From Ancylobacter radicis (GTDB lineage: Bacteria; Pseudomonadota; Alphaproteobacteria; Rhizobiales; Xanthobacteraceae): a stretch of 64,000 bases of DNA. The stretch is taken from NCBI RefSeq assembly GCF_018449475.1, contig NZ_JAHCQH010000015.1, forward strand, positions 930,001 to 994,000. Reading direction: 5' to 3'. A program made the position numbers and the translations under genes. Position 1 is the stretch's first letter. Each line of letters starts with the position of its first letter. Under the pieces are notes generated by a model that worked only from the letters and a program-made list of their open reading frames with translations, was not told the DNA's origin and made no database searches. This document shows positions 32,729-64,000 of the stretch, piece by piece.

Positions 32729-32743
32729 GCCGGGTCTGAACCC

Positions 32744-32839
32744 GTCATCCCGGCCGGAATCCGCAGGGTGCAGGGTCGGGATCGGGTGCTGATGACAGTG
32801 CGATCCCGGATCGGCGGCGGTGCCTCCGTCCGGGATGAC
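32744..32839. repeat. REP-like element inside the Nit1C operon
   Basis: GTCATCCCGGCC at the left and its inverted GTCCGGGATGAC at the right, with CGATCCCGGATCGGC inside. It is related to the element at 19965-20095. It fills the 133-base gap between the first gene and the nitrilase and ends 22 bases before the nitrilase start. Confidence 0.7.
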
Positions 32840-32861
32840 GGCCAAGGCCAAGGAGGCCGCA

Positions 32862-37731: not shown

Positions 37732-37739
37732 GGCCGACC

Positions 37740-38027
37740 ATGCCTGAGATGCACTTTTCCATTCGCTGGCCCGACGGCACGCGCGAGATCTGCTACTCGC
37801 CCTCTCTGGTCATCAAGGACTATTTCGTCCCCGGCGAGAGCTACACGCTCGACGACTTCCTCGCCCGCTCGCGGGCGGCGCTGATGATCGCCAGCGAGCG
37901 TGTTCAGGCCCGCTACGGCATGCCGTGTTCGCGCGCGCTGGGCCAGTTGGCCCGCATCGAGAGCGGGGCTCGCGCCTATTCCACCCATCCCGAGGCCCGC
38001 GTCGCCGTCGAATCCTTCGACGCGTGA
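37740..38027 (+). CDS. MSMEG_0570-family nitrogen starvation response protein (Nit1C)
   Basis: Small protein of 95 residues, a fixed member of Nit1[27 protein letters not shown] and the central [32 protein letters not shown] match the family. Function is unknown. It starts nine bases after the glycosyltransferase stop. Confidence 0.88.
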
Positions 38028-38052
38028 GCGCGCTCGCCAGCGGAGAGCCGAC

Positions 38053-48664: not shown

Positions 48665-49354
48665 ATGCAACTCGCCGGGTTGGATGCCGCATCGCTGCAG
48701 ACCGTGCGCGTGAGCGTGGTGGATCAGCTCTACGCGACCCTGCGCGGGGCCATCATCGATAATGACCTCAGCCCCGGCGCCCGGATTTCCGAAGCCGAGA
48801 TCGCCCAGCATTACGGGGTGAGCCGGCAGCCGGTGCGCGAGGCCTTCATCAAGCTCGCCAATGAGGGGCTGCTCGAAATCCGCCCTCAGCGCGGCACCTT
48901 CGTCGCCAAGATTTCCCTGTCGGCCGTGATGGATGCCCGCTTCGTGCGCGAGGCGGTCGAGGCGGACATCGTGAAGTTGCTGGCAACGGATCCGGCGCCG
49001 GCGCTCATCGCCGACCTCAACGATCAGCTTGCCCGCCAGCGCGGCATTATCGGGGGATCGGCGCGCGACTTCATGGAGGCGGATGAGGCCTTCCATCACA
49101 CGCTTGCAGCGGGTGCCGGCAAGGAAAACGCCTGGCGCGTGATCGTCGAGATGAAGGCGCAGATGGACCGGGTGCGCTTCCTGTCCAGCGTGCATTTCTC
49201 CGTGGCGCGTCTCGTCGACCAGCATACCACGCTGGTGGAGGCTATCGCCGCCGGCGATGGCGCCCGCGCCGAGCAGTCCATCCGCGCTCACTTGAAGGGA
49301 ATCCTGCACGATCTGCCGGTGATCGAGCAGGAGCACCCCGAATATTTTCGTTAG
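48665..49354 (+). CDS. GntR-family (FCD) regulator of the hexonate operon
   Basis: FadR/FCD-type repressor of 229 residues: winged helix (YATLRGAIIDNDLSPGARISEAEIAQHYGVSRQPVREAFIKLANEGLLE) and a helical effector domain with ADEAFHHTLAAGAG and the late VDQHTTLVEAIAAGD histidine. It leads the TRAP/sugar-acid operon and is the likely repressor responding to a pathway intermediate such as fructuronate or mannonate (inference). An imperfect dyad TATGGTAGTATGCCA lies about 40 bases upstream. Confidence 0.88.
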   Translation: MQLAGLDAASLQTVRVSVVDQLYATLRGAIIDNDLSPGARISEAEIAQHYGVSRQPVREAFIKLANEGLLEIRPQRGTFVAKISLSAVMDARFVREAVEADIVKLLATDPAPALIADLNDQLARQRGIIGGSARDFMEADEAFHHTLAAGAGKENAWRVIVEMKAQMDRVRFLSSVHFSVARLVDQHTTLVEAIAAGDGARAEQSIRAHLKGILHDLPVIEQEHPEYFR

Positions 49355-49402
49355 CCATCCGGCACCTGCCGGAAACTGAAAAACAACAAGGAGGAGACAA
49401 GA

Positions 49403-50374
49403 ATGATCAAGACGTTGACCCGACTGGCCGCCACCTGCGCAACCCTTGCCCTGCTCGGCGGCGCCGCCATGGCCGATGTGACCCTGAAGCTCGGTCACCT
49501 CGCCAATGAAGAAAACATCTGGCACAAGGCCGCGCTCAAGTTCGGCGAGGAGGTGCAGAAGCTCTCCGACGGCCGCGTGAAGGTGCAGGTCTATCCCAAC
49601 GAGTCGCTCGGCAAGGAGATGGACCTCATCAACGGCATGCAGCTTGGCACTGCCGACATGACCATCACCGGTGAGAGCCTGCAGAACTGGGCGCCCAAGG
49701 CGTCGCTGCTGGCGCTGCCCTATGGCTATCGCTCTCTGGAGCACATGGACAAGGTCGCGTCCGGCGATATCGGCAAGCAGATCGAGGCCGAGATCATCGA
49801 GAAGGCCGGCGTGCGTCCGCTCACCTATTTCGCGCGCGGCCCACGCAATCTTTCCGCCAACAAGGAAATCAAGACGCCGGATGAGCTGAAGGGCTTCAAG
49901 CTGCGCGTCCCGAATGTGCCGATCTTTGTGGCGGCCTGGCAGGCCATGGGCGCCAACCCGACTCCGATGGCCTTCTCCGAGGTGTTCACCTCGCTGCAGA
50001 ACGGCACCATCAACGGCCAGGAGAACCCGCTGGCCCTGTTCAAGTCGGGTGGCTTCTACGAGGTGCAGAAGGTCATCAACAAGACCGAGCATGTGCGCTC
50101 GTGGATCTACCTCGTCATTTCCGAGCGGACCTGGAACAAGCTGTCGGACGCGGACAAGGCGGCCGTGACAGAAGCGGCCAAGCGCACCCAGGCCTATGAA
50201 CGGGAGCTGTTCCTCGCCGACGAGGCGGCGCTGGTGAAGGACCTGGAAGGTCGCGGCGTGAAATTCGTCGAGGTGGACAAGGCCGCCTTCGCCGCCAAGG
50301 CGCGCGATGCCGTGCTCAATGCGGTGCCCGCCTCCATCCGCCCGCTTGCCGAGCAGATCTTCAGCAGCAACTGA
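49403..50374 (+). CDS. dctP: TRAP transporter substrate-binding protein DctP
   Basis: Periplasmic receptor for a sugar acid, 323 residues. Signal peptide about 1-24 (TLTRLAATCATLALLGGAAMA). DctP motifs: LKLGHLANEENIWHKAALKFGEEVQ, the carboxylate-binding arginine region ELKGFKLRVPNVPI, and TSLQNGTINGQENPLALF. Preceded by AAGGAGGAG. A strong intercistronic hairpin follows before dctQ. Confidence 0.94.
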   Translation: MIKTLTRLAATCATLALLGGAAMADVTLKLGHLANEENIWHKAALKFGEEVQKLSDGRVKVQVYPNESLGKEMDLINGMQLGTADMTITGESLQNWAPKASLLALPYGYRSLEHMDKVASGDIGKQIEAEIIEKAGVRPLTYFARGPRNLSANKEIKTPDELKGFKLRVPNVPIFVAAWQAMGANPTPMAFSEVFTSLQNGTINGQENPLALFKSGGFYEVQKVINKTEHVRSWIYLVISERTWNKLSDADKAAVTEAAKRTQAYERELFLADEAALVKDLEGRGVKFVEVDKAAFAAKARDAVLNAVPASIRPLAEQIFSSN

Positions 50375-50384
50375 CACGCCCGTG

Positions 50385-50413
50385 CCGGCCGGCTCCACGA
50401 GTGAGCCGGCCGG
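50385..50413 (+). promoter_or_regulatory. Intercistronic hairpin between dctP and dctQ
   Basis: CCGGCCGGCTC (50385-50395) pairs with GAGCCGGCCGG (50403-50413), an 11-bp stem with a seven-base loop and no T-run. Likely stabilises the upstream mRNA or attenuates, giving more binding protein than membrane subunits. Confidence 0.65.
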
Positions 50414-50432
50414 TCCGCGCGCGGAGGCATTC

Positions 50433-50933
50433 ATGACACGCTTGTTCAAAGGGCTGGAGGGGCTGTGCCGCCTCCTGATACTGGCGGCATTCCTCGTGCT
50501 GTCGGGCTCGGTGCTGCTGCAGGTGTTCGCCCGCACGTTTCTCGACACGGCCCCTGTGTGGACCGAGGAACTGACCCGGTTCTGCCTGATCTATATCGGC
50601 GCCCTTGGCGCTGGGCTGGCACTTCGCAGCGGCGACATGGTGAATGTCGACCTGCTCTGCGAGAGCATGCCTGGTCGCCAGCCCTGGATATTGCGGTTCC
50701 TCTGCGCGTTGCTCACGGCGGGTTTCGCCTTGATTTTGATCCCTGCGGCCTGGGACTACACCTCCATCGGTGTGCGCCAGACCGCTCCCTCGCTCGGCTG
50801 GCGCATGGATTTCATCCACGCCGCCATGCTGGTGCTGTTCGTCACCCTCGCGCTGTGGGCGCTGATGCGCGTCTACGAGATGCTGACCCGGCGCCATGAC
50901 GGTCGCCCCATTCCGCTGTCGGGGGACGAGTGA
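50433..50933 (+). CDS. dctQ: TRAP transporter small membrane subunit DctQ
   Basis: Four-helix subunit of 166 residues: LILAAFLVLSGSVLLQVFART, VWTEELTRFCLIYIGALGAGLAL (conserved WxEE/ARF-like region), ILRFLCALLTAGFALIL and the last helix AAMLVLFVTLALWALMRVYEM. Stop overlaps the next start as TGATG. GCGGAGG precedes the ATG. Confidence 0.93.
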   Translation: MTRLFKGLEGLCRLLILAAFLVLSGSVLLQVFARTFLDTAPVWTEELTRFCLIYIGALGAGLALRSGDMVNVDLLCESMPGRQPWILRFLCALLTAGFALILIPAAWDYTSIGVRQTAPSLGWRMDFIHAAMLVLFVTLALWALMRVYEMLTRRHDGRPIPLSGDE

Positions 50934-51160
50934 TGGGCCGCACACTCCTGCTTTGTACCTTCGTCGCCGGTCTTGGCGTCGCCCTGCTCGTGGCGTTCAC
51001 CTTCGGCCGGCCCTCCGCAATCTATCTCCTCTTCGCGGATATCCCGCTCGTGGTCATTGCCGCCATGCTGGTGCTGCTCGTCACTCTGGCGCTTTGGGCG
51101 CTCATACGGATGTTCGAGATGTTGACCGGCCGCCCCATCATGACTTTCGGAGACGAGTGA
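50933..51160 (+). CDS. Hybrid small membrane protein: dctM-like start plus dctQ-like end
   Basis: A 75-residue gene between dctQ and dctM. Residues 1-41 (MGRTLLLCTFVAGLGVALLV...FADIPLVVI) resemble the start of DctM, and 42-75 (AAMLVLLVTLALWALIRMFEM...GDE) resemble the last helix and tail of DctQ. It is therefore a duplication product across the dctQ-dctM junction. It keeps start and stop and overlaps both neighbours as TGATG, and amino-acid changes are mostly conservative. Two hydrophobic helices are expected. It may be expressed or be a fossil. Confidence 0.75.
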   Translation: MGRTLLLCTFVAGLGVALLVAFTFGRPSAIYLLFADIPLVVIAAMLVLLVTLALWALIRMFEMLTGRPIMTFGDE

Positions 51161-52437
51161 TGGGCCTGACCCTGCTTCTCTGCACTTTCGTCGCCGGCCT
51201 TGCCATCGGCCTGCCGGTCGCCGTCACGCTCGGCCTGTCTTCCATGGCCTACCTCGTCTTCGCGGATATCCCGCTCGTGGTCATTCCGCAGAAGATGTAT
51301 GCCGGCATGGACAGCTTTGTGCTGCTCTGCATCCCCGGCTTCATCCTGGCCGGCAATCTGATGAATTCCGGCGGTATCACTGAACGCATCATCCGTTTCG
51401 CCAACGCGCTGGTCGGCTGGATGCGCGGCGGCCTTGCGCAGGCCAACATCGCCGCCTCGATGCTGTTTGGCGGAATCTCCGGTACCGCGGTGGCAGACGT
51501 CGCCTCGGTTGGTGGCATGATGATCCCCGGCATGAAGAAAGCCGGCTATCCCGCCGCCTTCTCCGCCGCCGTCACCGCCGCCTCCTCGACGGTCGGCCCG
51601 ATGATCCCGCCGAGCGTGCCGATGATCATCGTCGGCTCACTCTCCGGCATTTCTGTCGGCAAACTGTTCCTCGCCGGCGCCGTGCCGGGTGTCCTCATGG
51701 GTTTTGCCATGATGGTCACGACCTATTTTCTGGCGAAGAAGCATGCCTTCCCGCGCGAGCCGTTTAAGGGCCTGCGCGAGCTGTTCACCTCGTTTGCCGG
51801 TGCGATCTGGGCCATCGCCATGACGGCTCTGATCGTCGGCGGCCTGCTGCTCGGCATCACCACGCCGACCGAGACGGCCATCGTCGCCTGCCTCTATGCG
51901 GTCGTGGTGGGCCTCTTCGTCTATCGCGAGCTGCCCGTCAGCCGCATCCCGAAGATCATCATCGACAGCGCCATCAGTTCGGCCGGTATTCTTGTGCTGG
52001 TCGGCACCGCCAATGTGTTCGGCTGGATTCTGGTGGCCGAACGCATCCCGCAGATGCTGGCGGAAACCGTGCTGTCGATCACTGACAACAAGTTCCTGGT
52101 CATCCTGCTGATCAATATCCTGCTGCTGTTCGTCGGCATGTTCATGGAGACGATCGCCGCGCTGATCATCCTGTTCGTGCCGCTTCTGACGCTTGCCACA
52201 GCGGTCGGCATCGAGCCGCTGCACTTCGCCTGCTTCGCGGTGCTGAACCTGATGATCGGCCTCACGACGCCGCCCGTCGGCGTGTGCCTCTTCGTGGCGT
52301 CCAACATCGCCCGGCTGCCGCTGTCCCCGGTGATCAAGGCGATCGTTCCGTACATCATCACCAACATCATCGTCCTGCTGATGGTCAGCTATTTCGCCCC
52401 GCTGGCGACCTGGCTGCCCAATCTTCTGATGCCCTGA
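51160..52437 (+). CDS. dctM: TRAP transporter large membrane subunit DctM
   Basis: Ion-coupled permease subunit, 425 residues, about 12 helices. Motifs: IPGFILAGNLMNSGGITERI, GGISGTAVADVASVGGMMIPGM, TAASSTVGPMIPPSVPMII and the late LTTPPVGVCLFVASNI. The ATG at 51160 gives the standard short N-terminus. Partner of DctQ and DctP. Confidence 0.95.
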   Translation: MGLTLLLCTFVAGLAIGLPVAVTLGLSSMAYLVFADIPLVVIPQKMYAGMDSFVLLCIPGFILAGNLMNSGGITERIIRFANALVGWMRGGLAQANIAASMLFGGISGTAVADVASVGGMMIPGMKKAGYPAAFSAAVTAASSTVGPMIPPSVPMIIVGSLSGISVGKLFLAGAVPGVLMGFAMMVTTYFLAKKHAFPREPFKGLRELFTSFAGAIWAIAMTALIVGGLLLGITTPTETAIVACLYAVVVGLFVYRELPVSRIPKIIIDSAISSAGILVLVGTANVFGWILVAERIPQMLAETVLSITDNKFLVILLINILLLFVGMFMETIAALIILFVPLLTLATAVGIEPLHFACFAVLNLMIGLTTPPVGVCLFVASNIARLPLSPVIKAIVPYIITNIIVLLMVSYFAPLATWLPNLLMP

Positions 52438-52446
52438 GGTCTGTCC

Positions 52447-53517
52447 ATGAGCGATGCACTTCTCACCCGCGTGGTCCGCCTCCACGCGCAGGATGATCTG
52501 CGGATCGAAACGCAGCCGGTCGGCGATTTACGCGCCGGCGAGGTCCGCGTCGCCATACTGGCCGGGGGCATTTGCGGTTCCGACCTGCATTACTGGCACG
52601 AGGGCGGCATCGGCACGATCCGCGTGCGCGAGCCGATCATCCTCGGCCATGAGGTGGCCGGCCGGATCGAGGCGCTGGGGGCGGGGGTCGAGGGGGTCGA
52701 CATCGGCCAGCTGGTGGCGGTGAACCCGTCCCACCCGTGCGGCGACTGCGAATTCTGCCGCAACGGCCTGCCGCGCCACTGCATGAACATGCGGTTCAAG
52801 GGATCGGCCATGTACCTGCCCCACGAACAGGGCATGTTCCGCGATCACCTCGTCATCGGTGCCGCCCAGTGCTTCCCGATGCCGGAGGGCGTCTCGCCCG
52901 GCGCGGCCGCGTGCAGCGAGCCGCTCGCCGTTTGCCTTCACGCCGCCAATCGCGGTGAGGCGGTCTCGGGGAGCCTTGAGGGCAAGACCGTGCTGGTGAC
53001 CGGGGCGGGGCCGATCGGTGCCTTGTGCGTCGCGGTCGCGCGCCAGCGCGGCGCGGCCGAGATCATCGTGACGGACATTCAGGATGCCACGCTCGCCGTC
53101 GCCCGGAAGATGGGCGCCGACCACGCGATCAACACGGCGCGCGATCCGGAAGGGCTGGCTCCCTGGCAGGCCGGCAAGGGCCGGGTGGACCTGGTGTTCG
53201 AGTGCTCGGCCGCCGCCGCCGCGATCCGCGACGCGGTGAGCGTGCTGCGCCCGCTCGGCACGCTGGTGCAGGTCGGCGTCGCCGGGCCGACGCCCTTGCC
53301 GCTCAACGTGATGGTGGGCAAGGAGATCCTGTTCGTCGGCTCGCAGCGTTTCGATGTCGAGTTTGCCGAGGCGGCCGCGCTGATCGGCTCGGGCGCCATC
53401 GACCCGCGTCCGATGATCACCGGCACCTATCCCATCACCGAGGCCCTTGCCGCCTTTCATGCCGCGTCTGACCGCTCCGCATCGGTCAAGGTGCAACTCG
53501 CCTTCGCCGCCAGCTGA
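52447..53517 (+). CDS. Zinc-dependent hexonate dehydrogenase (L-idonate / L-gulonate 5-dehydrogenase type)
   Basis: Medium-chain dehydrogenase of 356 residues. Catalytic zinc ligands in AGGICGSDLHYWHEGG and LGHEVAGRIE; structural zinc cysteines in HPCGDCEFCRNGLPRHC; NAD site VLVTGAGPIGALCVAVAR. It is closest to L-idonate 5-dehydrogenase. The neighbouring uxuB/uxuA suggest the product enters as D-fructuronate, which would make it an L-gulonate 5-dehydrogenase (inference). Confidence 0.85.
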   Translation: MSDALLTRVVRLHAQDDLRIETQPVGDLRAGEVRVAILAGGICGSDLHYWHEGGIGTIRVREPIILGHEVAGRIEALGAGVEGVDIGQLVAVNPSHPCGDCEFCRNGLPRHCMNMRFKGSAMYLPHEQGMFRDHLVIGAAQCFPMPEGVSPGAAACSEPLAVCLHAANRGEAVSGSLEGKTVLVTGAGPIGALCVAVARQRGAAEIIVTDIQDATLAVARKMGADHAINTARDPEGLAPWQAGKGRVDLVFECSAAAAAIRDAVSVLRPLGTLVQVGVAGPTPLPLNVMVGKEILFVGSQRFDVEFAEAAALIGSGAIDPRPMITGTYPITEALAAFHAASDRSASVKVQLAFAAS

Positions 53518-53551
53518 CGGCGCGAGAAACAAAAAAACGAGAGACGACTTC

Positions 53552-54769
53552 ATGAGACAAACCTGGCGCTGGTTCGGCCCCAAGGACCTCTGCTCGATCG
53601 ACGACATGCGGCAGGCGGATGTGGAAGGCGTGGTTTCCGCGCTCCACCATATGCCGACCGGCACGGTCTGGACGCCGGAGGAGATCGCCCGCCGCCAGAG
53701 CGAGATCGGCACCATGCGGGACGGCTCGCCCTCCGGCCTCGCCTGGGAGGTGGTCGAGAGCCTGCCGGTCTCCGAGGACATCAAGCGGCAGAGCGGGGCG
53801 TGGCGCGAGCATATCGCCAACTGGAAGACCTCGATGCGCCATCTGCGCGCGGCGGGGATTGAGGTCATCTGCTACAATTTCATGCCGATCCTCGACTGGA
53901 CGCGGACCGACCTCGCCTATCGCCTGCCGAGCGGCGCCACCTGCATGCGCTTCGATGCCATCGACTTCGCCGCCTTCGACCTGTTCATCCTTGAGCGGGC
54001 CGGCGCGCAGGAGGGCTATGCGCCGGAGATCGTCGAGCAGGCGCGCGAGCGTTTCGCCAGCATGACGCAGGCGCGCCGCAGCGAACTCGGCGGCAATGTG
54101 GTGTTCGGCCTGCCCGGCTCGGCCGAGGCGATGTCGATGGACGATGTGAAGTCGCACCTCGCCCGCTACGACAACATTCCGCCCGCCCGTCTGCGCCAGC
54201 ATCTGGTCGATTTTCTCGCCCAGGTAAGCCCGCTCGCCGAAGAGATCGGCGTGAGGCTGTGCTGCCATCCCGACGACCCACCGTTCCCGCTGCTCGGCCT
54301 GCCGCGCATCATGTCGACGGAGGCTGACTATCGCGCGGTGATGGAGGCGGTGGACATCCCCGCCAACGGCATCACGCTATGCACCGGCTCGCTGGGCGCG
54401 CGCGCCGACAATGACTTGCCGGGCATGATGGACCGGCTCGGCAGCCGGGTGCATTTCCTCCACCTTCGCAACGTTGCCCTTGAGGAGCGCCAGCTTGGCG
54501 GCTCGTTCCACGAGGCGGCGCATCTGGAGGGCAATACCGACATGGTGGCGATGATCGCCGCCATTCTGGCGGAGGAGAACCGCCGCAAGGCTGCCGGTCG
54601 GGCGGACTGGAACATCCCGTTCCGGCCGGATCACGGGCAGAACATCCTCGACGACCTCAATCGCGGCGGCCAGCCCGGCTATCCCTCGATCGGTCGCCTG
54701 AAGGGGCTGGCCGAACTGCGCGGCATCATGACGGCTCTGGCCCATCCGCTGGCGCGGGCGGCGCGATGA
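53552..54769 (+). CDS. uxuA: D-mannonate dehydratase
   Basis: Dehydrates D-mannonate to 2-keto-3-deoxy-D-gluconate. The 405 residues match UxuA: RQTWRWFGPKDLCSIDDMRQADVEGVVSALHHMPTGTVW, GIEVICYNFMPILDWTRTDL, RLCCHPDDPPFPLLGLPRIMST, and the C-terminal PFRPDHGQNILDDL. Start at 53552 (ATGAGACAAAC). Overlaps the next gene by four bases. Confidence 0.96.
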   Translation: MRQTWRWFGPKDLCSIDDMRQADVEGVVSALHHMPTGTVWTPEEIARRQSEIGTMRDGSPSGLAWEVVESLPVSEDIKRQSGAWREHIANWKTSMRHLRAAGIEVICYNFMPILDWTRTDLAYRLPSGATCMRFDAIDFAAFDLFILERAGAQEGYAPEIVEQARERFASMTQARRSELGGNVVFGLPGSAEAMSMDDVKSHLARYDNIPPARLRQHLVDFLAQVSPLAEEIGVRLCCHPDDPPFPLLGLPRIMSTEADYRAVMEAVDIPANGITLCTGSLGARADNDLPGMMDRLGSRVHFLHLRNVALEERQLGGSFHEAAHLEGNTDMVAMIAAILAEENRRKAAGRADWNIPFRPDHGQNILDDLNRGGQPGYPSIGRLKGLAELRGIMTALAHPLARAAR

Positions 54770-56235
54770 ACCGGCTCTCCGCCAGCGCCCTATCCGTCGG
54801 CACGGCCGCATGGCCGCGCTATCGGCCGGAGGAGCATCGGGCCGGGATCGTTCATCTCGGGCTCGGCAATTTCGCCCGCGCCCATCTGCTCGCCTATACC
54901 GATGAGGTGCTGGCGCGGCGTGGCGGTGACTGGCGGATAATCGGCGTCTCGCTGCGCGGCACCTCCGTCGCCGAGGCGCTGAATCCGCAGGATGGACGCT
55001 ACACGCTCATCACGCGCGGGCAGGAGACGCATGCACAGGTCATCGGCACCCTGAAGCATGTGATCGCCGGCACGCGCATGGCGAGTTGCGCGCTGGCGGC
55101 GATGACGCGTCCGGCGTGCCGGATCGTCAGCATCACCGTGACCGAGAAGGGCTACGGTATTACCAGCGAGGGCGCGCTCGACCGCACCCATCCGGCGGTC
55201 GCGGCCGATCTGGAGAGCCCGGCGGTACCCGGCGGCGTCATCGGGCTGATCGTGGCGGCACTCGCCGCACGGCGGGCGGCGGGCCTGCCGGCGTTCACCG
55301 TGCTGAGCTGCGACAATCTCTCCCATAATGGGCAGAAGCTGCGCCGGGCGGTGCTGGAATTCGCCGCTGCCACGCAGCAGGACGCGCTGGCTGGGTGGAT
55401 CGCGGCGAACGCCACCTTTCCTTCCACCATGGTGGACCGCATCACTCCCGCCTCCACGCGCGAGACGCTCGGCGCGGCGCAGGCACTGACCGGGCATGAA
55501 GACCTTGCGGCGGTCGAGACCGAGCCGTTCCATCAGTGGGTGATCGAGGACACGTTCGCCGCCGGGCGCCCGGAATGGGAACTGGCCGGCGCGCTGTTCG
55601 TGGCGGATGTCGCGCCCTATGAGCAGATGAAGCTGCGTATGCTCAATGGCGCGCATTCCATGCTCGCCTATAGCGGCCAACTCTCCGGCAAGGCCTATGT
55701 GCGCGACGTGATGGCGGACCCCGCCCATGCGGCTCTGGTGCGCCGCCATCTCAAGGCCGCCGCCGCCACGGTGCGCGGGCTGGCGCTCGACCTCGACGTC
55801 TATGCCGCGGCACTGGCGGAACGCTTCGTCAACCCGTCCATCGCCCATGCCACCGCGCAGATCGCCATGGACGGGACGCAGAAGCTGCCTCAGCGCATCG
55901 CCGCCCCCGCATGTGAGGCGCTGGAAGCGGGAACGCCGGTTCGCCCCTTCGCCTTCGCGCTGGCGAGCTGGGTTGCCTATCTCGCCCGCCGCGATGCCTG
56001 CGGCGCGCCGATCCGCGTCGACGATCCGCGCGCGGATGCGCTGCGGAACGCCGTGGCGGGTGCAAAGGATATCGCAGCCTTGCTTCCGGCTCTGTCCGCC
56101 CTCTGCCCGGACGTTCTTCCGCCGGTATTATTGAACGGGGAGTTCGGCGCCAGCCTTGCGCAGCTTGTCGAGGCCATCGATAGCGAGGGCATGGCGGCGG
56201 TCATTGCCCGCGAAGCCATGCGGGACTGGGAGTAA
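54766..56235 (+). CDS. uxuB: D-mannonate oxidoreductase / fructuronate reductase
   Basis: Polyol-specific long-chain dehydrogenase, 489 residues. GIVHLGLGNFARAHLLAYTDEVL is the nucleotide site; FTVLSCDNLSHNGQKLRRAV and the catalytic-lysine region KLRMLNGAHSMLAYSG follow. It interconverts D-fructuronate and D-mannonate. Mannitol dehydrogenase is a close alternative, but the uxuA and kdgK neighbours favour UxuB. Coupled to uxuA. Confidence 0.9.
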   Translation: MNRLSASALSVGTAAWPRYRPEEHRAGIVHLGLGNFARAHLLAYTDEVLARRGGDWRIIGVSLRGTSVAEALNPQDGRYTLITRGQETHAQVIGTLKHVIAGTRMASCALAAMTRPACRIVSITVTEKGYGITSEGALDRTHPAVAADLESPAVPGGVIGLIVAALAARRAAGLPAFTVLSCDNLSHNGQKLRRAVLEFAAATQQDALAGWIAANATFPSTMVDRITPASTRETLGAAQALTGHEDLAAVETEPFHQWVIEDTFAAGRPEWELAGALFVADVAPYEQMKLRMLNGAHSMLAYSGQLSGKAYVRDVMADPAHAALVRRHLKAAAATVRGLALDLDVYAAALAERFVNPSIAHATAQIAMDGTQKLPQRIAAPACEALEAGTPVRPFAFALASWVAYLARRDACGAPIRVDDPRADALRNAVAGAKDIAALLPALSALCPDVLPPVLLNGEFGASLAQLVEAIDSEGMAAVIAREAMRDWE

Positions 56236-56239
56236 GGCT

Positions 56240-57121
56240 GTGCGCTTTCTTTCCATCGGCGAGGCGATGCTGGAATTGTCCGAGCAGCAGGCGCCGCTCT
56301 GGGCGATGAACGTGGCCGGCGACACGCTGAACACCGCCTGGCACTTCAAGCGGCTGTGCGGCGAGCGGGCGGAGGTCGCCTATTTCACCGGTCTGGGTAC
56401 CGATCCGTTCTCGGCGCGGATCGAGAGCTTCATCGCCGGCGCGGGGATCGAGACCCGCTTCATCCGCCACGAGCCCTCGCGCGGGCCGGGGCTCTACGCC
56501 ATTTCGCTGCGAAATGGCGAGCGCAGCTTCACCTATTGGCGCGACCGCTCGGCGGCGAAGCTGCTGGCCGATGACGAGGCGGCGCTCGGCGCCGCGCTTG
56601 GCTGGGCCGACATGATCTATCTGAGCGGCATCACCCTCGCCATTCTGTCGGTCGGGGCGCGGGAGCGGCTGATGGCGGCGCTGGCGGCGGCGCGCCGGCG
56701 TGGTGCCACGGTGGCGTTCGACCCCAATATCCGCCCTCGCCTCTGGGAAGACGCCGACACGATGCGTCGGACGATCATGCAGGCGGCGGGTGGGGCCGAC
56801 ATTGTCCTGCCGAGCTTCGAGGACGAGGCGCAGCATTTCGGCGATGCGAGCCTGGAAGCCTGCGCGCGGCGTTATGATACCGATGGCGACCGCGAGATCG
56901 TCGTCAAGAATGGCGGACGGGACGTGGCGGTTCGCGCCGGAGGCAGGTGCACCCACCATGCGATGGCACCGATCACGCCTGTGGACACCACAGGCGCCGG
57001 GGACGCCTTCAACGCCGGCTGGCTTGCCGCGCGCCATGAGGGGTTGTCCCCGGAAGACGCCGTGATGCGCGCCCACGCCTTGGCCACGCATGTCATTTCG
57101 CACAAGGGCGCGCTGGTCTGA
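56240..57121 (+). CDS. kdgK: 2-keto-3-deoxygluconate kinase
   Basis: PfkB-family sugar kinase of 293 residues phosphorylating KDG to KDPG. FLSIGEAMLELSEQQAPLWAMNVAGDTLNTAWHFKRL at the N-terminus, VAFDPNIRPRLWED, and the PfkB signature TPVDTTGAGDAFNAGWLA with the catalytic Asp. The GTG at 56240 follows GGGAG. Last gene of the operon; the KDPG aldolase gene (eda) is not in the window. Confidence 0.92.
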   Translation: MRFLSIGEAMLELSEQQAPLWAMNVAGDTLNTAWHFKRLCGERAEVAYFTGLGTDPFSARIESFIAGAGIETRFIRHEPSRGPGLYAISLRNGERSFTYWRDRSAAKLLADDEAALGAALGWADMIYLSGITLAILSVGARERLMAALAAARRRGATVAFDPNIRPRLWEDADTMRRTIMQAAGGADIVLPSFEDEAQHFGDASLEACARRYDTDGDREIVVKNGGRDVAVRAGGRCTHHAMAPITPVDTTGAGDAFNAGWLAARHEGLSPEDAVMRAHALATHVISHKGALV

Positions 57122-57156: not shown

Positions 57157-58059
57157 TCAGTCGAGCGGCACCAGGAAATCGGACACCGCCTTCAGGCAGG
57201 CGTCCTTTTCCTCCACATGCGGCATGTGGCTGGACTCTGGGAACAGCACCCAGCGGCAATGGGCGATGTTTTCGCGGTAGGGTCGCACCACTTCCGGCGT
57301 CGCCTCGTCATGCGCGCCGGAAATCAGCAGCGTCGGCGCCACGATGCGGTGCAGCCGGTCCTCGATGGTCCAGTCCTTCATCGTCCCGATGACATGGAAT
57401 TCGGTCGGGCCGTTCATGTTGCGATAGACCGTGTTGTCCTCGTCCATCGCCGCGAAGGTGCGCGCGACATCCTCCGGCCACGGCGTGATGCGGCAGACAT
57501 GACGGTCATAAAATACCCGCGAGGCGGCGATGTAGTCCGGGTCGGTCAGCGTGCCGGCCGCCTCGTGCTTCAGCAGCGTCGCCTGCACCTCCTCGGGCAA
57601 TTCGCGGCGCAGACGGTTCGCCTCCGCGACCCAGGTATGCATGTTGGCCGGCGAATTGGCGATGATGAGCGCCTTCAGCCCCGCCGGCTGGCGCACCGCG
57701 TGTTCGGCGCCCAGCATTCCGCCCCAGGACTGGCCGAGAAAGGCATAGCGGCCGGCAATGCCGAGATGGGCCAGCAGGGCGTCGAGTTCGGCGAGGAACA
57801 GGTCGACGGTCCAGAAATCCGGTCCCTTGTCCGGCAGATGGGTCGATTTGCCATTGCCAAGCTGGTCGTAATGAATGACGGCGCGGCCATCGAGCGCAGC
57901 GATGCCCTTGAGGGAATCGACATAGTCATGGGTGCAGCCCGGCCCGCCATGAGCCACCACGAGTGGTAATTCTGCACCGCCGAGATCGCCGGTCACGCGG
58001 TACCAGGTTTCGTACCCACGGAAAGGCATCCGCCCTTCCACGCTCACCACGGCGTTCAT
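57157..58059 (-). CDS. Proline iminopeptidase-family hydrolase, pip1
   Basis: S33-family alpha/beta hydrolase, 300 residues. HGGPG oxyanion motif in [17 protein letters not shown], nucleophile serine in [15 protein letters not shown], Asp in [13 protein letters not shown] and His in [11 protein letters not shown]. In plant-associated bacteria such PipA-type enzymes lie beside LuxR solos and help process the plant-derived signal or its peptide-like precursor. AGGAG precedes the start. A lux-box-like dyad is 65 bases upstream. Confidence 0.9.
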
Positions 58060-58123
58060 GCCGATTCTCCTGCGGCTGTCGTTCGATAGCGCAGGAAAAT
58101 AGAAAGTCGCGCCGGGAAGCGGC

Positions 58124-58142
58124 AGCTATCAGAAGTGATAGG
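58124..58142 (-). promoter_or_regulatory. Lux-box-like operator 1, upstream of pip1
   Basis: On the minus strand CCTATCACTTCTGATAGCT, containing the dyad CTATCA-N4-TGATAG. A -10-like TCTATT begins 20 bases beyond the site on the pip1 side, placing the dyad near -42.5 as in LuxR-activated promoters. Exactly identical to operator 2. Confidence 0.85.
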
Positions 58143-58160
58143 CGGTGGACGATGCGCGGC

Positions 58161-58922
58161 TCAGTCCAGCAGGCGCAGCCTCGCCGCGCGCACCGCCGCC
58201 TGCGTGCGGTTCTTGGCTTCGAGCTTCCGCATGGCGGCGTTGAGATGCATCACCACGGTCGGCACGGAGCGGCCGAGGGCGCGGGAAATCTCTTTGGCGG
58301 AAAGGCCTTCCGCGGCGTGGCGCAGGCATTCGCGCTCGCGCGCGGTGAGGCGCGGCAGGCCCTCCAGCCGGCGGTCGTCGCGCAGGGCGGTGGAGGCGGC
58401 GTTCTGGAAGATGTGGGCGAGCAGGCTGAAATCGCCGAGGCAGGCGGGGGCGTCGCGCTCGGCGAAGCGCCCGTCGCCGCAGCGTATGCCGGTGATGGTG
58501 GCGTAGTCGCCGCCGGGCATGTGCACGGGTACGGTAACACCGGCGCTGAGGCCGCGCTCGGCGAGGAAGGCGGCGACGGGGGCGCTGTCCTCGTTCATGA
58601 AGGCGCGGATCAGCGTCGAGGCGCGCTTGTCGTAGTTCCACACGAAGGGGCGGGTGGTGCCGAGGGCCACCTTCTGCACCGGGTCCAGCCGGATATAGCC
58701 CCGCTCGACCCAGTAGTCGCGCATCGCCGCGTCCACATTGCGCAGCTCCAGCACGGTGGGCAGCATCTGCGTGCCGGTAAGATCGTAGCGCGCGGGCGTG
58801 TAATCATAGATCAGCGCGTCGAAGCCGAAATCGCCCATCGCCTCGAACAGCAGGTCCACCTGCGCACCGAAGGTGGAGGCCGCTCCGATACGCTGCTCGA
58901 TCGCGCCGATATCCGCAGGCAT
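58161..58922 (-). CDS. LuxR-family solo regulator (PipR/OryR-like)
   Basis: Signal-responsive activator of 253 residues: an autoinducer-binding-type domain (about 15-165, with YWVERGYIRLDPVQKVALGTTRPFVW) and a C-terminal LuxR helix-turn-helix (LTARERECLRHAAEGLSAKEISRALGRSVPTVVMHLNAAMRKL). By eye, the Trp-to-Asp spacing in the ligand site is four residues shorter than TraR, so the Tyr that contacts acyl-homoserine lactones is absent. There is no luxI nearby. ATG 58922 has AAAGGA upstream; ATG 58943 is an alternative. It sits between two pip genes and two operators. Confidence 0.87.
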   Translation of the reverse strand: MPADIGAIEQRIGAASTFGAQVDLLFEAMGDFGFDALIYDYTPARYDLTGTQMLPTVLELRNVDAAMRDYWVERGYIRLDPVQKVALGTTRPFVWNYDKRASTLIRAFMNEDSAPVAAFLAERGLSAGVTVPVHMPGGDYATITGIRCGDGRFAERDAPACLGDFSLLAHIFQNAASTALRDDRRLEGLPRLTARERECLRHAAEGLSAKEISRALGRSVPTVVMHLNAAMRKLEAKNRTQAAVRAARLRLLD

Positions 58923-58956
58923 GATGGCCCGTCCTTTTGCCATTCCAGCGTGCGAA

Positions 58957-58975
58957 CCTATCACTTCTGATAGCT
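58957..58975 (+). promoter_or_regulatory. Lux-box-like operator 2, upstream of pip2 and luxR
   Basis: CCTATCACTTCTGATAGCT in the plus orientation, 65 bases before the pip2 start and 34 bases before the LuxR start, so it could serve both. Identical over 19 bases to operator 1 and in the same orientation relative to its pip gene. Confidence 0.85.
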
Positions 58976-59040
58976 GTTTTGGACTCACGATTTCTCTAGG
59001 AATTGAGCATGCCTTTTTGTTGAGCAGGGATGCGCCGGAC

Positions 59041-59928
59041 ATGTGGCGGGAGATTGAGCCGCAGGAGCGGCGTGAGGTGGCTGTCGGCGAACACCGCGTG
59101 GTCACCTATAGCTTCGGCTCCGGCGCCGACACTATCCTGTTACTCAATGGCGGTCCGGGCCTGCCCTGCGATTATCTGCGCGAGGCCCATTCCTGCCTTA
59201 TCGATCAGGGCTTTAGGGTCGTCACCTTCGACCAGCTGGGCACCGGCGCCTCGGACCGGCCGACCGACGAGGGGCTGTGGACCATTGCGCGCTATGTCGA
59301 GGAGGTCGAGACGGTGCGCACCGCGCTCGGCCTCGGCAAGGTGCATCTGCTCGGCCATAGCTGGGGCGGCTGGCTGGCGATTGATTACGCGCTGACCTAT
59401 CCCGACGCCCTCAAGAGCCTGATCCTTGCCGACACGGTGGCGGACATGCCGCATCTGGTGAGCGAACTGGAGAAGCTGCGCGCTGCGCTCGGGCCGGAGA
59501 CGGTCGCGATGATGCAGAAGCACGAGGCGGCCGGCAGCTTCGACCACCCGGAATATCAGGCGGCGATAACCCTACTGAATTACCGCCATATCTGCCGCCT
59601 TCCGGAATGGCCGGCCCCGGTGCAGCGTTCGCTGGCGGATTGGAACATGGGGCCGTACATGGCCATGCAGGGCCCGAACGAGTTCCTCTACACCGGCAAC
59701 CTCAAGGACTGGAACCGGATCCCGGATCTTCACCGTATCACCGTACCGACGCTGATCGTGGTCGGCGAGCGCGACGAGCTGACGCCGGCCTGCGCCATGA
59801 AGATGAAGCACGCCCTGCCTCAGGCGCGGCTCAACCTCGTGCTCAATGCCAGCCACATGCCGTTCTACGAGAACCCGGCCGGCTATTACCCGCCCCTCCT
59901 CGATTTCCTCGCCAGCGTGCCGCGGTAA
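59041..59928 (+). CDS. Proline iminopeptidase-family hydrolase, pip2
   Basis: S33-family hydrolase, 295 residues from ATG 59041. LLLNGGPGLPCDYLREA, nucleophile in LLGHSWGGWLAIDYAL, Asp in VVGERDELTPAC and His in NASHMPFYENP. It is clearly diverged from pip1 across the regulator. The frame is open upstream to TTG codons near 59017, so eight more residues are possible. It leads directly into dppB two bases after the stop. Confidence 0.9.
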   Translation: MWREIEPQERREVAVGEHRVVTYSFGSGADTILLLNGGPGLPCDYLREAHSCLIDQGFRVVTFDQLGTGASDRPTDEGLWTIARYVEEVETVRTALGLGKVHLLGHSWGGWLAIDYALTYPDALKSLILADTVADMPHLVSELEKLRAALGPETVAMMQKHEAAGSFDHPEYQAAITLLNYRHICRLPEWPAPVQRSLADWNMGPYMAMQGPNEFLYTGNLKDWNRIPDLHRITVPTLIVVGERDELTPACAMKMKHALPQARLNLVLNASHMPFYENPAGYYPPLLDFLASVPR

Positions 59929-59930
59929 AC

Positions 59931-60869
59931 ATGCACCGCTATTCCTTCATCCTGACGCGGCCGCTGCAGTTCCTGCCGGTGGTGTTCGGCGTCAGCCTGA
60001 TCACCTTCATCCTGGTGCGGCTGATCCCCGGCGATCCCGCGCGGGTGCTGCTGGGGGCGCGGGCGACGCCGACCGCCATCGCCAATATCCGCGCGCAATA
60101 CGGGCTCGATGAGCCGCTCTGGCTTCAGTATTTCTATTTCCTGCGCAACCTCTTGCATGGCGAGATGGGCACCTCGATCGTCTACAAGATCGACGTGCTC
60201 CGCCTCATCGCGACCCGTATCGAGCCGACGCTGGCGCTGGTGGTGGCGAGCGTGGTGCTCTCCATCCTGATCGCCGTGCCGCTCGCCGCGCTTGCCGCGC
60301 GCCATCAGGGCCGGCCGATCGATCATGTGATCCGCATCGTCTCGACCTTCGGCATCGGCTTCCCGCCCTTCTGGCTCGGGCTGATGCTGATCATCCTGCT
60401 CGCCGTCACCGTGCCGATCTTTCCGGTGTCTGGATACGGCGACACGCTGTTCCAGAAGCTCGCCCATCTCTTCCTGCCGGCGCTGACCATCGCCCTGTCG
60501 CTCTCCACCGTGCTGCTGCGCTCGCTGCGCGCGGCCATGGTGGACTGGCTGAAATCGGACGTCGCGACCGCCGCCCGCGCGCGCGGCGTGCCGGAATCGG
60601 TGGTGTTCTGGCGCCATGTGCTGCCCAATTCGATCGCCCCCTCGATCAACCTTCTGGCCGTGAATATTGGCTGGCTGATCGGCGGCACGGTGGTGATCGA
60701 GAGCATCTTCGCCCTGCCGGGCATGGGCCAGCTTCTGGTGCGGGCGATTTTCTCCAGGGATTACATGGTGGTACAAGGCGTCGCCATGGTGTTCGCCTGC
60801 GCCACGGTGATGGTGAACTTCCTCGCCGACATCGCCACCGTGGCCGCCGACCCGCGGGTGAAGCTGTGA
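59931..60869 (+). CDS. dppB: Dipeptide/oligopeptide ABC transporter permease 1
   Basis: Membrane subunit of a peptide-type importer, 312 residues. Typical N-terminus (LTRPLQFLPVVFGVSLITFILVRLIPGDPARVLLG), and the coupling motif in ARARGVPESVVFWRHVLPNSIAPSINL. Six helices. Starts two bases after pip2, so co-transcribed from operator 2. Substrate could be a plant-derived amide or dipeptide (inference from the LuxR/pip context). Confidence 0.93.
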   Translation: MHRYSFILTRPLQFLPVVFGVSLITFILVRLIPGDPARVLLGARATPTAIANIRAQYGLDEPLWLQYFYFLRNLLHGEMGTSIVYKIDVLRLIATRIEPTLALVVASVVLSILIAVPLAALAARHQGRPIDHVIRIVSTFGIGFPPFWLGLMLIILLAVTVPIFPVSGYGDTLFQKLAHLFLPALTIALSLSTVLLRSLRAAMVDWLKSDVATAARARGVPESVVFWRHVLPNSIAPSINLLAVNIGWLIGGTVVIESIFALPGMGQLLVRAIFSRDYMVVQGVAMVFACATVMVNFLADIATVAADPRVKL

Positions 60870-61690
60870 GCGGGGCAGCGGCCACGCGCCGGCTAAGCCC
60901 GACCCTGCTGGTGGGGCTGGGCATTCTCGGCCTGTTCGCGCTGGCCGCGCTGGCCGCGCCTGTCATCGCGCCGTATGACCCGATCTATCAGGAAGCCACG
61001 GCGCGGCTTCAGCCGCCGTCCTTCGCCCATCCCTTCGGTACCGACAATTTCGGCCGCGACATCCTCTCGCGCATCATCTTCGGTGCCCGCGTCGATTTGC
61101 AGATGGCGGCGATCGGGGTGTTCTTTCCCTTCGTCATCGGCACCTTCATCGGCGCGCTGGCGGGCTTCTTCGGCGGCCTCGTCGACGCCGTGCTGATGCG
61201 GCTGATCGACATCATCCTGGCCTTTCCCTTCCTCGTGCTGATGCTCTCCATCATCGCCATTCTCGGGCCGGGATTGTCGAGCTTTTACATAGCGATGGCG
61301 CTAGTCGGCTGGGTCTCCTATGCCCGCCTGATCCGGGCACAGATCCTCGTTCTGAAGACCGCCGACTATGCGGTGGCGGCGGTCAGTCTGGGCTTCTCGA
61401 AGCCCCGCGTGCTGTTCCGGCACCTGCTTCCCAACGCGGTGGCGGGGTCGGTGGTGTTCTGCATGTCGGACGCGGTTCTGGTGCTGCTCTCGGGCGCGGC
61501 GATCTCCTATCTGGGCCTTGGGGTCCAGCCGCCGACCGCCGAGTGGGGTATCATGGTAGCGGAAGGGCAGGCGTTCCTGTCGCAGGCCTGGTGGATCACG
61601 CTGTTTCCCGGCTTGTCCATCGTGGTCCTGGCCTTCGGCTTCTCGCTGATCGGCGACGCGCTGGGCGAGATGATGGGGGTGCATGAATGA
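60866..61690 (+). CDS. dppC: Dipeptide/oligopeptide ABC transporter permease 2
   Basis: Second membrane subunit, 274 residues. PYDPIYQEATARLQPPSFAHPFGTDNFGRDILSRIIFGARVDLQ is the DppC signature, and VSLGFSKPRVLFRHLLPNAVAGSVV the coupling helix. GTG start overlaps the dppB stop (GTGA). Overlaps the ATPase gene by four bases. Confidence 0.93.
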   Translation: MSGAAATRRLSPTLLVGLGILGLFALAALAAPVIAPYDPIYQEATARLQPPSFAHPFGTDNFGRDILSRIIFGARVDLQMAAIGVFFPFVIGTFIGALAGFFGGLVDAVLMRLIDIILAFPFLVLMLSIIAILGPGLSSFYIAMALVGWVSYARLIRAQILVLKTADYAVAAVSLGFSKPRVLFRHLLPNAVAGSVVFCMSDAVLVLLSGAAISYLGLGVQPPTAEWGIMVAEGQAFLSQAWWITLFPGLSIVVLAFGFSLIGDALGEMMGVHE

Positions 61691-63414
61691 GTGCCACCCC
61701 GGCCCCCGATCCGCTGCTCAGCGTCCGCGATCTTACCGTCACGGTGCGCGGCGAGGCGGGTGAGCGCACGCTGATCGACGGCGTCTCGCTCGACCTTGCC
61801 AAGGGCGAAATCCTTGGTCTTGTTGGTGAAAGCGGCTCGGGCAAGAGCCTGCTCTGCCGCGCGCTGGTGCGTCTGCTGCCCTCCCGCGCCCTCGCCATTG
61901 CCGGCGGCTCGGTGCGGCTTGCCGGGCGCGAACTCACCACCGCCAGCACCGCCGAGATGGAGGCGGTGCGCGGCGGCGCGATCGGCATGATCTTCCAGAA
62001 TCCGTCGAGCCATCTCGATCCGGTGATGCGGGTCGGTGACCAGATCTCGGAAGGGGTAATATTTCACCGCAAGCTCGACCGGGTGGCGGCGAGGGCGGAG
62101 GCCGTCGCCATCATGGAGCAGGTCGGATTCACCGATCCGGCCCGCCAGTATTCCAACTATCCCCATGAATTCTCAGGCGGAATGCGGCAGCGGGCGATGA
62201 TCGCGGTGGCGCTGGCCTGCGATCCCGACATTCTCATCGCCGATGAACCGACGACCGCCCTCGACGTCACCATCCAGGCGCAAATCCTGCGTCTTCTCAT
62301 GGAGTTGCGCGAGCGGCGCGGCCTGTCCATCATCCTCATCACCCATGATCTCGGCGTCGTCGCCCAGACCTGCGACCGGATCGCCGTGATGCGGCAGGGG
62401 GGCGTCGTCGAGACGGGTGCCAAGCGGCAAATTCTTACCTCTCCGCAGCATCCCTATACCCGCGCGCTGATCGCCAGCCACCCCTCCATGCCGGTGGATT
62501 ACGAGGCCAGTGAGGTGGACGATCAGGCCAGTCAGGCCGATCAGGCTCAGCCGTTCGCGCCCGCGCCGACCCCGCCGCTCGCCCCCCGCCCGCTGGTCGA
62601 GATCGACGACCTGCAGGTGCGCTACCCGGTCGGCGGAGGGGTGTTCACCCGCCGGCGCTTTTTCAGCGCGCTGGCCGGGGTGTCGCTGCAGATCATGCCC
62701 GGCGAGACGGTCGGCATTGTCGGGGAGAGCGGCTCGGGCAAGTCGACACTGGCGCGGGCCATGCTCGGGCTCTCGCCGATCTCCGATGGCCATGTCACCT
62801 TCGACGGCGACAGCCTGCGCCTGACGCCGGCCGCGACCCTCGCCCGGATGCGGCGCGAGGCGGCGATGGTGTTCCAGGACCCGTTCAACTCGCTCAACCC
62901 GCGCTTCACCATCGGCGAGACGCTGGCCGAGGTGCTGCGCGTGCACGGCAAGGTGGCTCCATCCGCCATTCCCGCCCGCGTCGAGGAACTGCTGCGCCTC
63001 GTCGAACTTGATCCGGCGCTCGCCGTGCGCCGGCCGCGCCAGCTGTCCGGCGGCCAGTGCCAGCGCGCCGGCATTGCGCGCGCGCTGGCGGTCGATCCCC
63101 GGCTGATCGTGGCGGATGAATGCGTGGCGGCGCTCGATGTCACCATCCAGGCGCAGATCGTCGACCTGTTCCGCCGGCTGGTGGCGACGATGGACCTGAC
63201 GCTGGTCTTCATCGCCCATGACCTCGCCATCGTCCGGCATCTGTGCCAGCGCGTCGTCGTCATGCATCACGGGCGGATCGTCGAGGAGGGGCCCTGCGCC
63301 GAGGTTTTCGCCCGGCCGCGCGAGGCCTACACCGCCGCCCTCATCGCCGCCATTCCCGACATCGACCCGGACCGGCGCCTGCTCATGCCGCCGGCGAGCG
63401 TGCTTTCCAGCTGA
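61687..63414 (+). CDS. Fused dipeptide ABC ATPase (DppD-DppF)
   Basis: Two ABC ATPases in one chain, 575 residues. First half: Walker [15 protein letters not shown], signature [12 protein letters not shown], Walker [13 protein letters not shown] linker rich in Asp, Gln, Ala and Pro (about 275-302) joins the second half: [41 protein letters not shown]. In the second half Glu-Cys-Val replaces Glu-Pro-Thr in the Walker B DEPT, a mild oddity. Energises the DppBC pair. Confidence 0.92.
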
Positions 63415-63458
63415 CGTCCTTGTCACCTGACGTATTTGCCACCTGACCTCCCGTTCTC
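63411..63458. repeat. Three 16-bp tandem repeats before the binding-protein gene
   Basis: CTGACGTCCTTGTCAC, CTGACGTATTTGCCAC and CTGACCTCCCGTTCTC begin at 63411, 63427 and 63443. The first overlaps the ATPase stop codon. Could be slippage or a small regulatory array. Confidence 0.45.
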
Positions 63459-63486
63459 ACCAACAAACCTCCAGAGGAAGAACGAC

Positions 63487-64000
63487 GTGAAAAGCGCATT
63501 CAGGACCTCCCGCCTCGCGGCTTTTGCCGCCCTTCTGTCGCTGTCGGCCAGCTTCGCCGCGACCAGCGTCGCCCATGCGGCCGGCGTGCTCTCCATCGCC
63601 CGCAACGAGGATTCGACCACCTTCGATCCCATCAAGTCGGCGCAGAATGTCGACAATTGGGTGTTCTCGAACGTGTTCGACGTGCTGGTGCGGGTCGACG
63701 CCACCGGCACCAAGCTGGTTCCCGGCCTTGCCGAGAGCTGGAGCGTCTCTGATGACGGGCTGACCTACACCTTCAAGCTGCGCGACGCGAAGTTCTCCGA
63801 CGGCGCCCCGGTCACCGCCGAGGACGCCGCCTATTCGCTGATCCGCATCCGCGACGACAAGGGCTCGCTCTGGTCGGACAGCTTCAAGATCATCGACACC
63901 GCGACCGCCGCTGACGCCAAGACGCTGGTGGTGAAGCTCAAGAGCAAGTCGGTGCCGTTCCTGTCGATGATGGCGCTGCCCAACGCCTCGGTGCTGCCGA
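63487..64000 (+). CDS. Peptide/amide ABC transporter substrate-binding protein (3' end outside window)
   Basis: SBP family 5 protein; 171 residues visible of about 500. Signal peptide about 1-32 (SAFRTSRLAAFAALLSLSAS ... AHAAG), then GVLSIARNEDSTTFDPIKSAQNVDNWVFSNVFDVLVRVD, LVPGLAESWSVSDDGLTYTFKLRDAKFSDGAPVTAEDAAYSL, all family-5 features. The GTG at 63487 has GAGGAAG upstream. Completes the importer downstream of the LuxR-pip module. Confidence 0.93.
   Translation, partial: MKSAFRTSRLAAFAALLSLSASFAATSVAHAAGVLSIARNEDSTTFDPIKSAQNVDNWVFSNVFDVLVRVDATGTKLVPGLAESWSVSDDGLTYTFKLRDAKFSDGAPVTAEDAAYSLIRIRDDKGSLWSDSFKIIDTATAADAKTLVVKLKSKSVPFLSMMALPNASVLP

Follow-up and report, generated by a model that had tools for sequence, protein, structure and literature searches.

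The subject of this report is a seven-gene locus at the end of a 64,000-nucleotide window of Ancylobacter radicis (assembly GCF_018449475.1, contig NZ_JAHCQH010000015.1, positions 930,001 to 994,000), in which a LuxR-type regulator is flanked by genes for two hydrolases of the proline iminopeptidase family, pip1 and pip2, the latter being followed by two permeases, a fused ATPase and a family-5 binding protein. All seven genes were found in the order and on the strands that an earlier note on this DNA had described. Both Pip products match TIGR01250 above its cut-off of 167.65 bits (scores in Table 1) and share 36% identity over 275 aligned positions; the regulator exceeds the cut-offs of Autoind_bind (PF03472, 89 bits) and GerE (PF00196, 57.1 bits), and the permease, ABC and SBP_bac_5 domains of the importer also lie above cut-off in the family scan. 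The luxR frame opens at 59105, and its ATG at 58922 was taken, by reading, as the likely start; pip2 likely begins at the ATG at 59041, and the binding protein, whose N-terminus reads like a signal peptide, at a TTG near 63436 or a GTG at 63487, frames beyond the end of the window being taken from the same genome on a contig of 1.07 Mb. With GTG, GTG and ATG starts at 59925, 60866 and 61687, a 4-bp overlap is possible at each junction from pip2 to the fused ATPase, and a gap of 21 bp separates the latter from the TTG start of the binding protein gene; these overlaps and the short gap make a single transcript from pip2 to the binding protein likely.

Two identical copies of a palindrome, CTATCAGAAGTGATAG, with the form CTATCA-N4-TGATAG and of the CT-N12-AG type, lie at the module, one before pip1 and the other, inverted, in the divergent promoter of luxR and pip2. 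Candidate -10 hexamers accompany both boxes, and TCTAGG or TCTACG occupies the same place in the pip2 promoters of the Ancylobacter-group loci compared. A role of the boxes as terminators was dropped, since one of them sits, by reading, between divergent start codons. Within the window, three matches with up to two mismatches were obtained, as compared to a mean of 0.57 in 100 shuffles (two of which reached three), and the two exact ones are the module boxes. A search of the 4.2-Mb genome with up to one mismatch, for which the window's own sequence was employed, returned only the two sites of the module, while its backward control gave one. The finding of this operator only at the module suggests a local, substrate-responsive circuit whose operator is confined to the cassette, and weaker sites may exist elsewhere.

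Table 1. Features of the locus and of a second cluster in the window (window coordinates unless L001, the locus extended beyond the window, is given).
Feature	Position	Strand	Remarks
pip1, proline iminopeptidase-family hydrolase, PipA counterpart	57157..58059	-	TIGR01250, 269 bits; signal peptide not seen by reading
-10-like hexamer TCTATT, putative pip1 promoter	58098..58103	-	by reading
Predicted operator (lux box) of pip1	58126..58141	.	CTATCAGAAGTGATAG; centered 74.5 bp before pip1 start codon
LuxR-type regulator, PipR/OryR subfamily, 253 aa	58161..58922	-	PF03472 and PF00196
Predicted second operator	58958..58973	.	CTATCAGAAGTGATAG inverted; centered 75.5 bp before pip2 and 43.5 bp before luxR start codon
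-10-like hexamer TCTAGG, putative pip2 promoter	58995..59000	+	by reading; about where a box centered at -42.5 would place it
pip2, proline iminopeptidase-family hydrolase, AapA counterpart, first gene of the likely transporter operon	59041..59928	+	TIGR01250, 277 bits
AapB-like permease	59925..60869	+	PF00528/PF19300; GTG at 59925, ATG at 59931 also possible
AapC-like permease	60866..61690	+	PF00528/PF12911; GTG start at 60866
Fused double ATPase, AapD and AapE in one chain	61687..63414	+	two ABC_tran stretches; ATG start at 61687
AapF-like periplasmic binding protein	63436..64000, continuing to the equivalent of 65016 (L001:8437-10017)	+	PF00496
Nitrilase-like ORF	32820-33935		by reading
Radical-SAM-like ORF	33835-34992		by reading

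A wider consensus, CTATMANNNNTKATAG, was written after inspection of the loci and searched in 34 genomes. A close LuxR is encoded in 11 genomes of the genus (our own and ten others at 65-89% identity), and these hold 20 such sites, all beside the LuxR gene, with two in nine genomes and one each in G014 and G018; among the 19 genomes of the genus that lack a close LuxR, 18 have no site and one, G015, has a single site. Of the Rhizobium-type genomes, G083 and G347 carry two sites each, at the module only, and G202 carries two at the module and one elsewhere (G202:C8:264057-264072), which could be due to chance or represent an additional target; G477 has a single site, again at the module. When run backward as a control, the consensus matched in five of the 34 genomes (once each in G007, G020, G022 and G202, twice in G028).

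Conservation of the boxes was followed across 33 loci (L001, L034-L050 and L069-L083), each of which holds a LuxR match; L084 and the short loci from the same searches were not included. Twenty-four of these are Hyphomicrobiales cassettes (L001, L034-L049, L069, L070, L077-L079, L081 and L083), including L078, which has no pip2, and L049, which is cut by a contig end. The luxR-side box fits the consensus in all 24; on the pip1 side 20 fit, three have one mismatch and one (L077) has two. Among the other nine loci, L074 has one fitting box and L050 one box with a mismatch, while no box with one mismatch or fewer is present in L071, L072, L073, L075, L076, L080 and L082. Instead, CTAGCTGTTTTGCTAG, likewise of the CT-N12-AG type, precedes pip1 in the three Pseudomonas-type loci (L071, L075 and L076). 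The recognition helix of the regulator is RSVPTVVMHL in the 24 Hyphomicrobiales loci as well as L050 and L074; the three Pseudomonas-type loci have RSLAVVTLHL, and the remaining four have other forms. Since the rows are related, this agreement between box and helix may stem from few events and is no independent proof.

These operators bear directly on the possibility that the hydrolases and importer form an ordinary peptide-scavenging operon, beside an unrelated LuxR protein whose targets lie elsewhere. What speaks for such a reading is that transporters of the Dpp/Opp type and TIGR01250 hydrolases are often met among peptide-use genes. An unrelated regulator is nevertheless at odds with identical operators that lie almost equally far from the two hydrolase genes and have no third copy in the genome even when one mismatch is allowed, with the co-occurrence of operator and LuxR across the genus, and with a gene order conserved from Rhizobium to Pseudomonas-type loci; because of the operators, it was judged very unlikely. 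The form CT(N12)AG has been given as typical of lux boxes (PMC4338825). Five 16-base box sequences had no verbatim match in the literature searched, although papers or their supplements, such as the palindromes in supplementary Table 5 of PMC4338825, may contain them.

The regulator displays the features of the OryR/PipR subfamily of LuxR solos of plant-associated bacteria (PAB): Autoind_bind and GerE domains, the substitutions W57M and Y61W, an adjacent pip gene and a CT-N12-AG box before pip. Positions follow the numbering of TraR, which was assigned to the motif with the aid of an alignment to a QscR-type chain. The regulator has M67 and W71 at the positions of TraR W57 and Y61; among the 33 loci, the former position carries M in 30, the three Pseudomonas-type rows having W instead, and the latter is W in all. 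L071, L075 and L076 therefore depart from the W57M rule of the subfamily. The positions of TraR D70, P71, W85 and G113 are conserved in 33 of 33 loci, as D80, P81, W95 and G128 in our regulator. Our own genome gave no match to the luxI family PF00765, AHL (N-acyl homoserine lactone) synthases of other kinds not having been searched for. The 14 named controls of this search were silent, but it works in this group, as it gave matches in 11 of the 30 genomes tested from the genus, our own being counted among the 30. Together with the AapF ortholog described below, the M/W substitutions and the lack of a PF00765 luxI bear out the earlier note, which had proposed a PipR/OryR-type LuxR solo beside pip genes and a peptide-type importer and had called for a check of the genome for luxI.

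The regulator might instead eavesdrop on the AHLs of neighboring bacteria, with the pip genes serving something else; the luxI matches imply that AHLs may occur in the group, and the four TraR positions named above are conserved. Against this stand the M and W residues at positions 57 and 61, which are those of the plant-responsive subfamily (PMC10134790), and the published PipR work, in which PipR was uninfluenced by AHLs and an importer is unnecessary for such signals (PMC4981722). Such eavesdropping is considered very unlikely.

When compared with PDB chains, the binding protein has AapF as its top match (7kz8/7kz9, E value 1e-236 over query residues 47-526), followed only at 5e-53 by the next chain, and by this measure it is an ortholog of AapF, a protein of the PipR system. 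In Pseudomonas GM79, pipA and aapA lie on either side of pipR, and aapB-F follow aapA; AapF is the last product of the aap operon, whose genes are named aapA-F. In this strain, an aapB mutant is unresponsive, peptidase mutants over-respond, activation is lost upon two base changes in the box, and the pipA box is centered at -71.5 (PMC4981722). Our comparison with GM79 follows this published description, with the Pseudomonas-type loci L071, L075 and L076 as stand-ins for sequence. A LuxR match at E values of up to 1e-30 occurs in 12 of 398 genomes drawn from the phylum (our own included), among them L071, which lies outside the class; judged from an ungapped alignment over 480 residues, its binding protein is virtually identical to AapF, and L071 can therefore stand in for the PipR locus.

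In L071 the order is pip1, LuxR, pip2, two permeases, two separate ATPase stretches and binding protein, the same as in Ancylobacter. Our pip1 product is 66% identical to that of L071 pip1 and 36% to that of L071 pip2, while our pip2 product is 69% identical to L071 pip2 and 35% to L071 pip1; the AapB-like and AapC-like permeases share 67% and 71% identity with their counterparts. In the three Pseudomonas-type loci and the two of Rahnella type, the fused ATPase is matched by two stretches that lie apart, annotated as two genes in Rahnella. The locus therefore holds an AapF-type binding protein, an AapBCDE-type importer and a counterpart of the second peptidase AapA, with a single operon suggested by the gene overlaps.

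A tree was built from 32 of the 58 Pip rows, taken from 19 of the 33 loci and midpoint-rooted for drawing only. The pip1 and pip2 products fall on opposite sides of a branch with 100/100 support, each side comprising alphaproteobacterial and Pseudomonas-type rows and the pip1 side also including Rahnella; as judged from this tree, the hydrolase pair is common to these lineages and no local novelty. On the pip2 side, the two Pseudomonas-type rows are placed together with those of Rhizobiaceae and Pannonibacter and do not branch outside the whole set of alphaproteobacterial rows, so that the tree gives no date for the split between pip1 and pip2, and the cassette may have been transferred between lineages. 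Ser111, Asp251 and His278 of pip1 are conserved in 32 of 32 pip1 rows, and Ser107, Asp245 and His272 of pip2 in 26 of 26 pip2 rows; we take these residues to be catalytic.

The pair of hydrolases had been viewed in the earlier note as a departure from a single pip gene, and the arrangement as one not known to be described. Neither view survives comparison with the literature and with annotated replicons: PipR of GM79 is already flanked by PipA and AapA (PMC4981722), a 2023 review tabulates the arrangement pip/transporter-luxR-pip for NesR, OryR and others (PMC10134790), a 2015 survey lists it with W57M/Y61W in Rhizobium, Pseudomonas, Rahnella and other bacteria (PMC4338825), and plasmid pRLG204 of R. 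leguminosarum WSM2304 has, by its annotation, the same gene order with one ATPase gene. A novel arrangement was rejected on account of the GM79 locus and of Rhizobium and Pannonibacter plasmids whose annotation shows an identical order of genes. The pip-luxR-pip-transporter arrangement is known, and what is added here is a well-conserved operator common to both promoters.

The family varies in content. A search of genome contigs supplied 18 loci, L051 being unused since its match covers 60 residues of the DNA-binding part. The Rahnella-type loci L073 and L080, as well as L078 (G006), have no pip2/AapA match and carry the transporter directly after LuxR, and the second hydrolase may thus be dispensable in some lineages. 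In L050 (Salipiger), L074 and L082 (Aureimonas), LuxR and pip1 lie beside a different, distantly related peptide-type transporter, which suggests exchange of transporters within this regulator family; L072 has a LuxR and neither Pip. The surroundings also differ: with flanks compared over 2.8-4.0 kb beyond the binding protein and approximately 8 kb beyond pip1, the genes that flank our cassette were not found at more than 55% identity in the nine other Ancylobacter-group loci (11 queries, uxuA not counted), six of which (L035-L038, L048 and L079) have a common flank beyond the binding protein and agree partly on the pip1 side. By its flanks, the cassette sits at different places within the genus. 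In a search for an empty site, the two genes that border the module were sought in 30 genomes at E values of up to 1e-60, and among the matches listed for other genomes they were never adjacent, so that the search yielded no empty site. In our genome, an inositol monophosphatase-family gene (L001:10060-10863, by family scan) converges on the binding protein gene, and a block of sugar ABC and isomerase-like genes lies, by reading, beyond it.

Taken together, the locus is very probably a LuxR-solo cassette of the PipR/OryR type, a gene-by-gene counterpart of pipA-pipR-aapA-aapBCDEF that would work as a circuit of import, activation and cleavage. In such a circuit, the periplasmic binding protein would capture a small peptide-like or amide-like compound, which the AapBC-DE transporter would import; the compound would then bind LuxR, whose dimer would sit on both CT-N12-AG boxes, the one before pip1 and the one in the luxR/pip2 divergent promoter, switching on both hydrolases and the importer. 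The hydrolases would in turn cleave the inducer or related compounds and turn the circuit off again. Dependence on import, activation and feedback are carried over by analogy from the PipR experiments.

Several points weigh against this assignment. PsrR of Kosakonia did not mediate pip induction by rice root macerate, ethanolamine or N-(2-hydroxyethyl)-2-(2-hydroxyethylamino)acetamide (HEHEAA) (PMC7301841), and the P. protegens pip promoter beside psoR is said to be without a lux-box palindrome (PMC7683790). Seven of the 33 LuxR loci have no pip2 match; our LuxR is only 42-43% identical to the Pseudomonas-type regulator, and its recognition helix and box differ from those of that type, so that its behavior may differ as well. 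G014 and G018 have a single fitting site each, the pip1 box of the G014 locus (L077) carrying two mismatches, and the locus-wise counts are partly circular, because the consensus was written after the loci had been seen.

A variant of this same reading would have the cassette serve genuine interkingdom sensing, with a plant compound met on plants as its ligand, as for OryR or PipR. The orthology with PipR and AapF favors it, as does the share of Rhizobium among plasmids: a LuxR relative at E values of up to 1e-40 is present in 149 plasmid records, 121 of them from Rhizobium, and many of the 60 that were listed name a legume as source. However, HEHEAA arises spontaneously from ethanolamine (PMC10134790), and a plant is therefore not required; the same cassette occurs in a record of Pannonibacter from human blood, and the names A. 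aquaticus and A. dichloromethanicus, taken as names alone, suggest other habitats. A plant-derived ligand is a genuine possibility, to which we give somewhat less than even chances. A further proposal, put forward tentatively and with some doubt, is that the Hyphomicrobiales PipR-type cassette could be a self-contained catabolic switch, in which a LuxR-fold protein serves as local substrate sensor for a two-site regulon with its own operator code, CTATMA-N4-TKATAG read by RSVPTVVMHL, as opposed to CTAGC-type arms and RSLAVVTLHL in the Pseudomonas-type branch, and whose ligand need not derive from plants. A close transporter homolog in another species is reported to be unable to bind HEHEAA (PMC10134790).

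These observations place a complete PipR-Aap cassette in the Ancylobacter group, and Ancylobacter is not mentioned in the main text of PMC10134790. The operator makes the question of the regulon testable, and the difference in operator and recognition helix between the branches lends itself to a DNA-binding swap test. If LuxR acts at these two sites only, the "signal" would be better seen as a substrate, with LuxR controlling its uptake and cleavage.

Two other clusters were observed in the window. At 32246-40187 lies a nitrilase-type cluster, in which, besides the two ORFs of Table 1, sll0787 AIR-synthase-like, MSMEG_0565 glycosyltransferase, MSMEG_0569 flavin oxidoreductase and LnmK/Pnap_2097-family ORFs score above cut-off; it resembles the Nit1C cluster. 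At 48665-57121, a block for hexuronate use comprises a GntR-like regulator, a tripartite ATP-independent periplasmic (TRAP) transporter, a zinc dehydrogenase, a mannonate dehydratase, a fructuronate-reductase-like gene and a sugar kinase; the TRAP binding protein, the dehydratase and the reductase (below cut-off) have family matches, and the rest was assigned by reading. Close matches of the kinase (79-82%) were found in three of the 29 other genomes searched.

With respect to known systems, OryR, XccR, XagR and XocR of Xanthomonas, for which the comparison is drawn from the literature, belong to the same PAB LuxR-solo subfamily with an adjacent pip (PMC10134790); they are described as having no linked ABC transporter (PMC4981722), although in the table of PMC10134790 OryR, XccR and XocR are each entered with a peptide transporter. 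NesR of Sinorhizobium meliloti is likened to our regulator through its literature description. The Rhizobium pip-LuxR-pip-transporter loci, as in WSM2304, are alike in order, strands, single ATPase gene and type of operator, but the WSM2304 copy is plasmid-borne; in the Rhizobium loci L039-L047 and L069, LuxR is 58-60% identical to ours and the box arms are CTATAA rather than CTATCA. The PipR-PipA-AapABCDEF system of GM79 shares with the Ancylobacter locus a LuxR solo flanked by two Pip-type peptidase genes, an importer made of two permeases, two ATPases and a binding protein, and inverted repeats upstream of both peptidase genes, the pip1 box lying at -74.5 here and the pipA box at -71.5 there. 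It differs in that the ATPases are fused in Ancylobacter, in that the second box lies outside luxR (with the start at 58922) while the aapA box overlaps the pipR coding sequence in GM79, and, as gauged on the Pseudomonas-type loci, in arms of CTATCA as opposed to the CTAGC type and in a regulator that is 42-43% identical.

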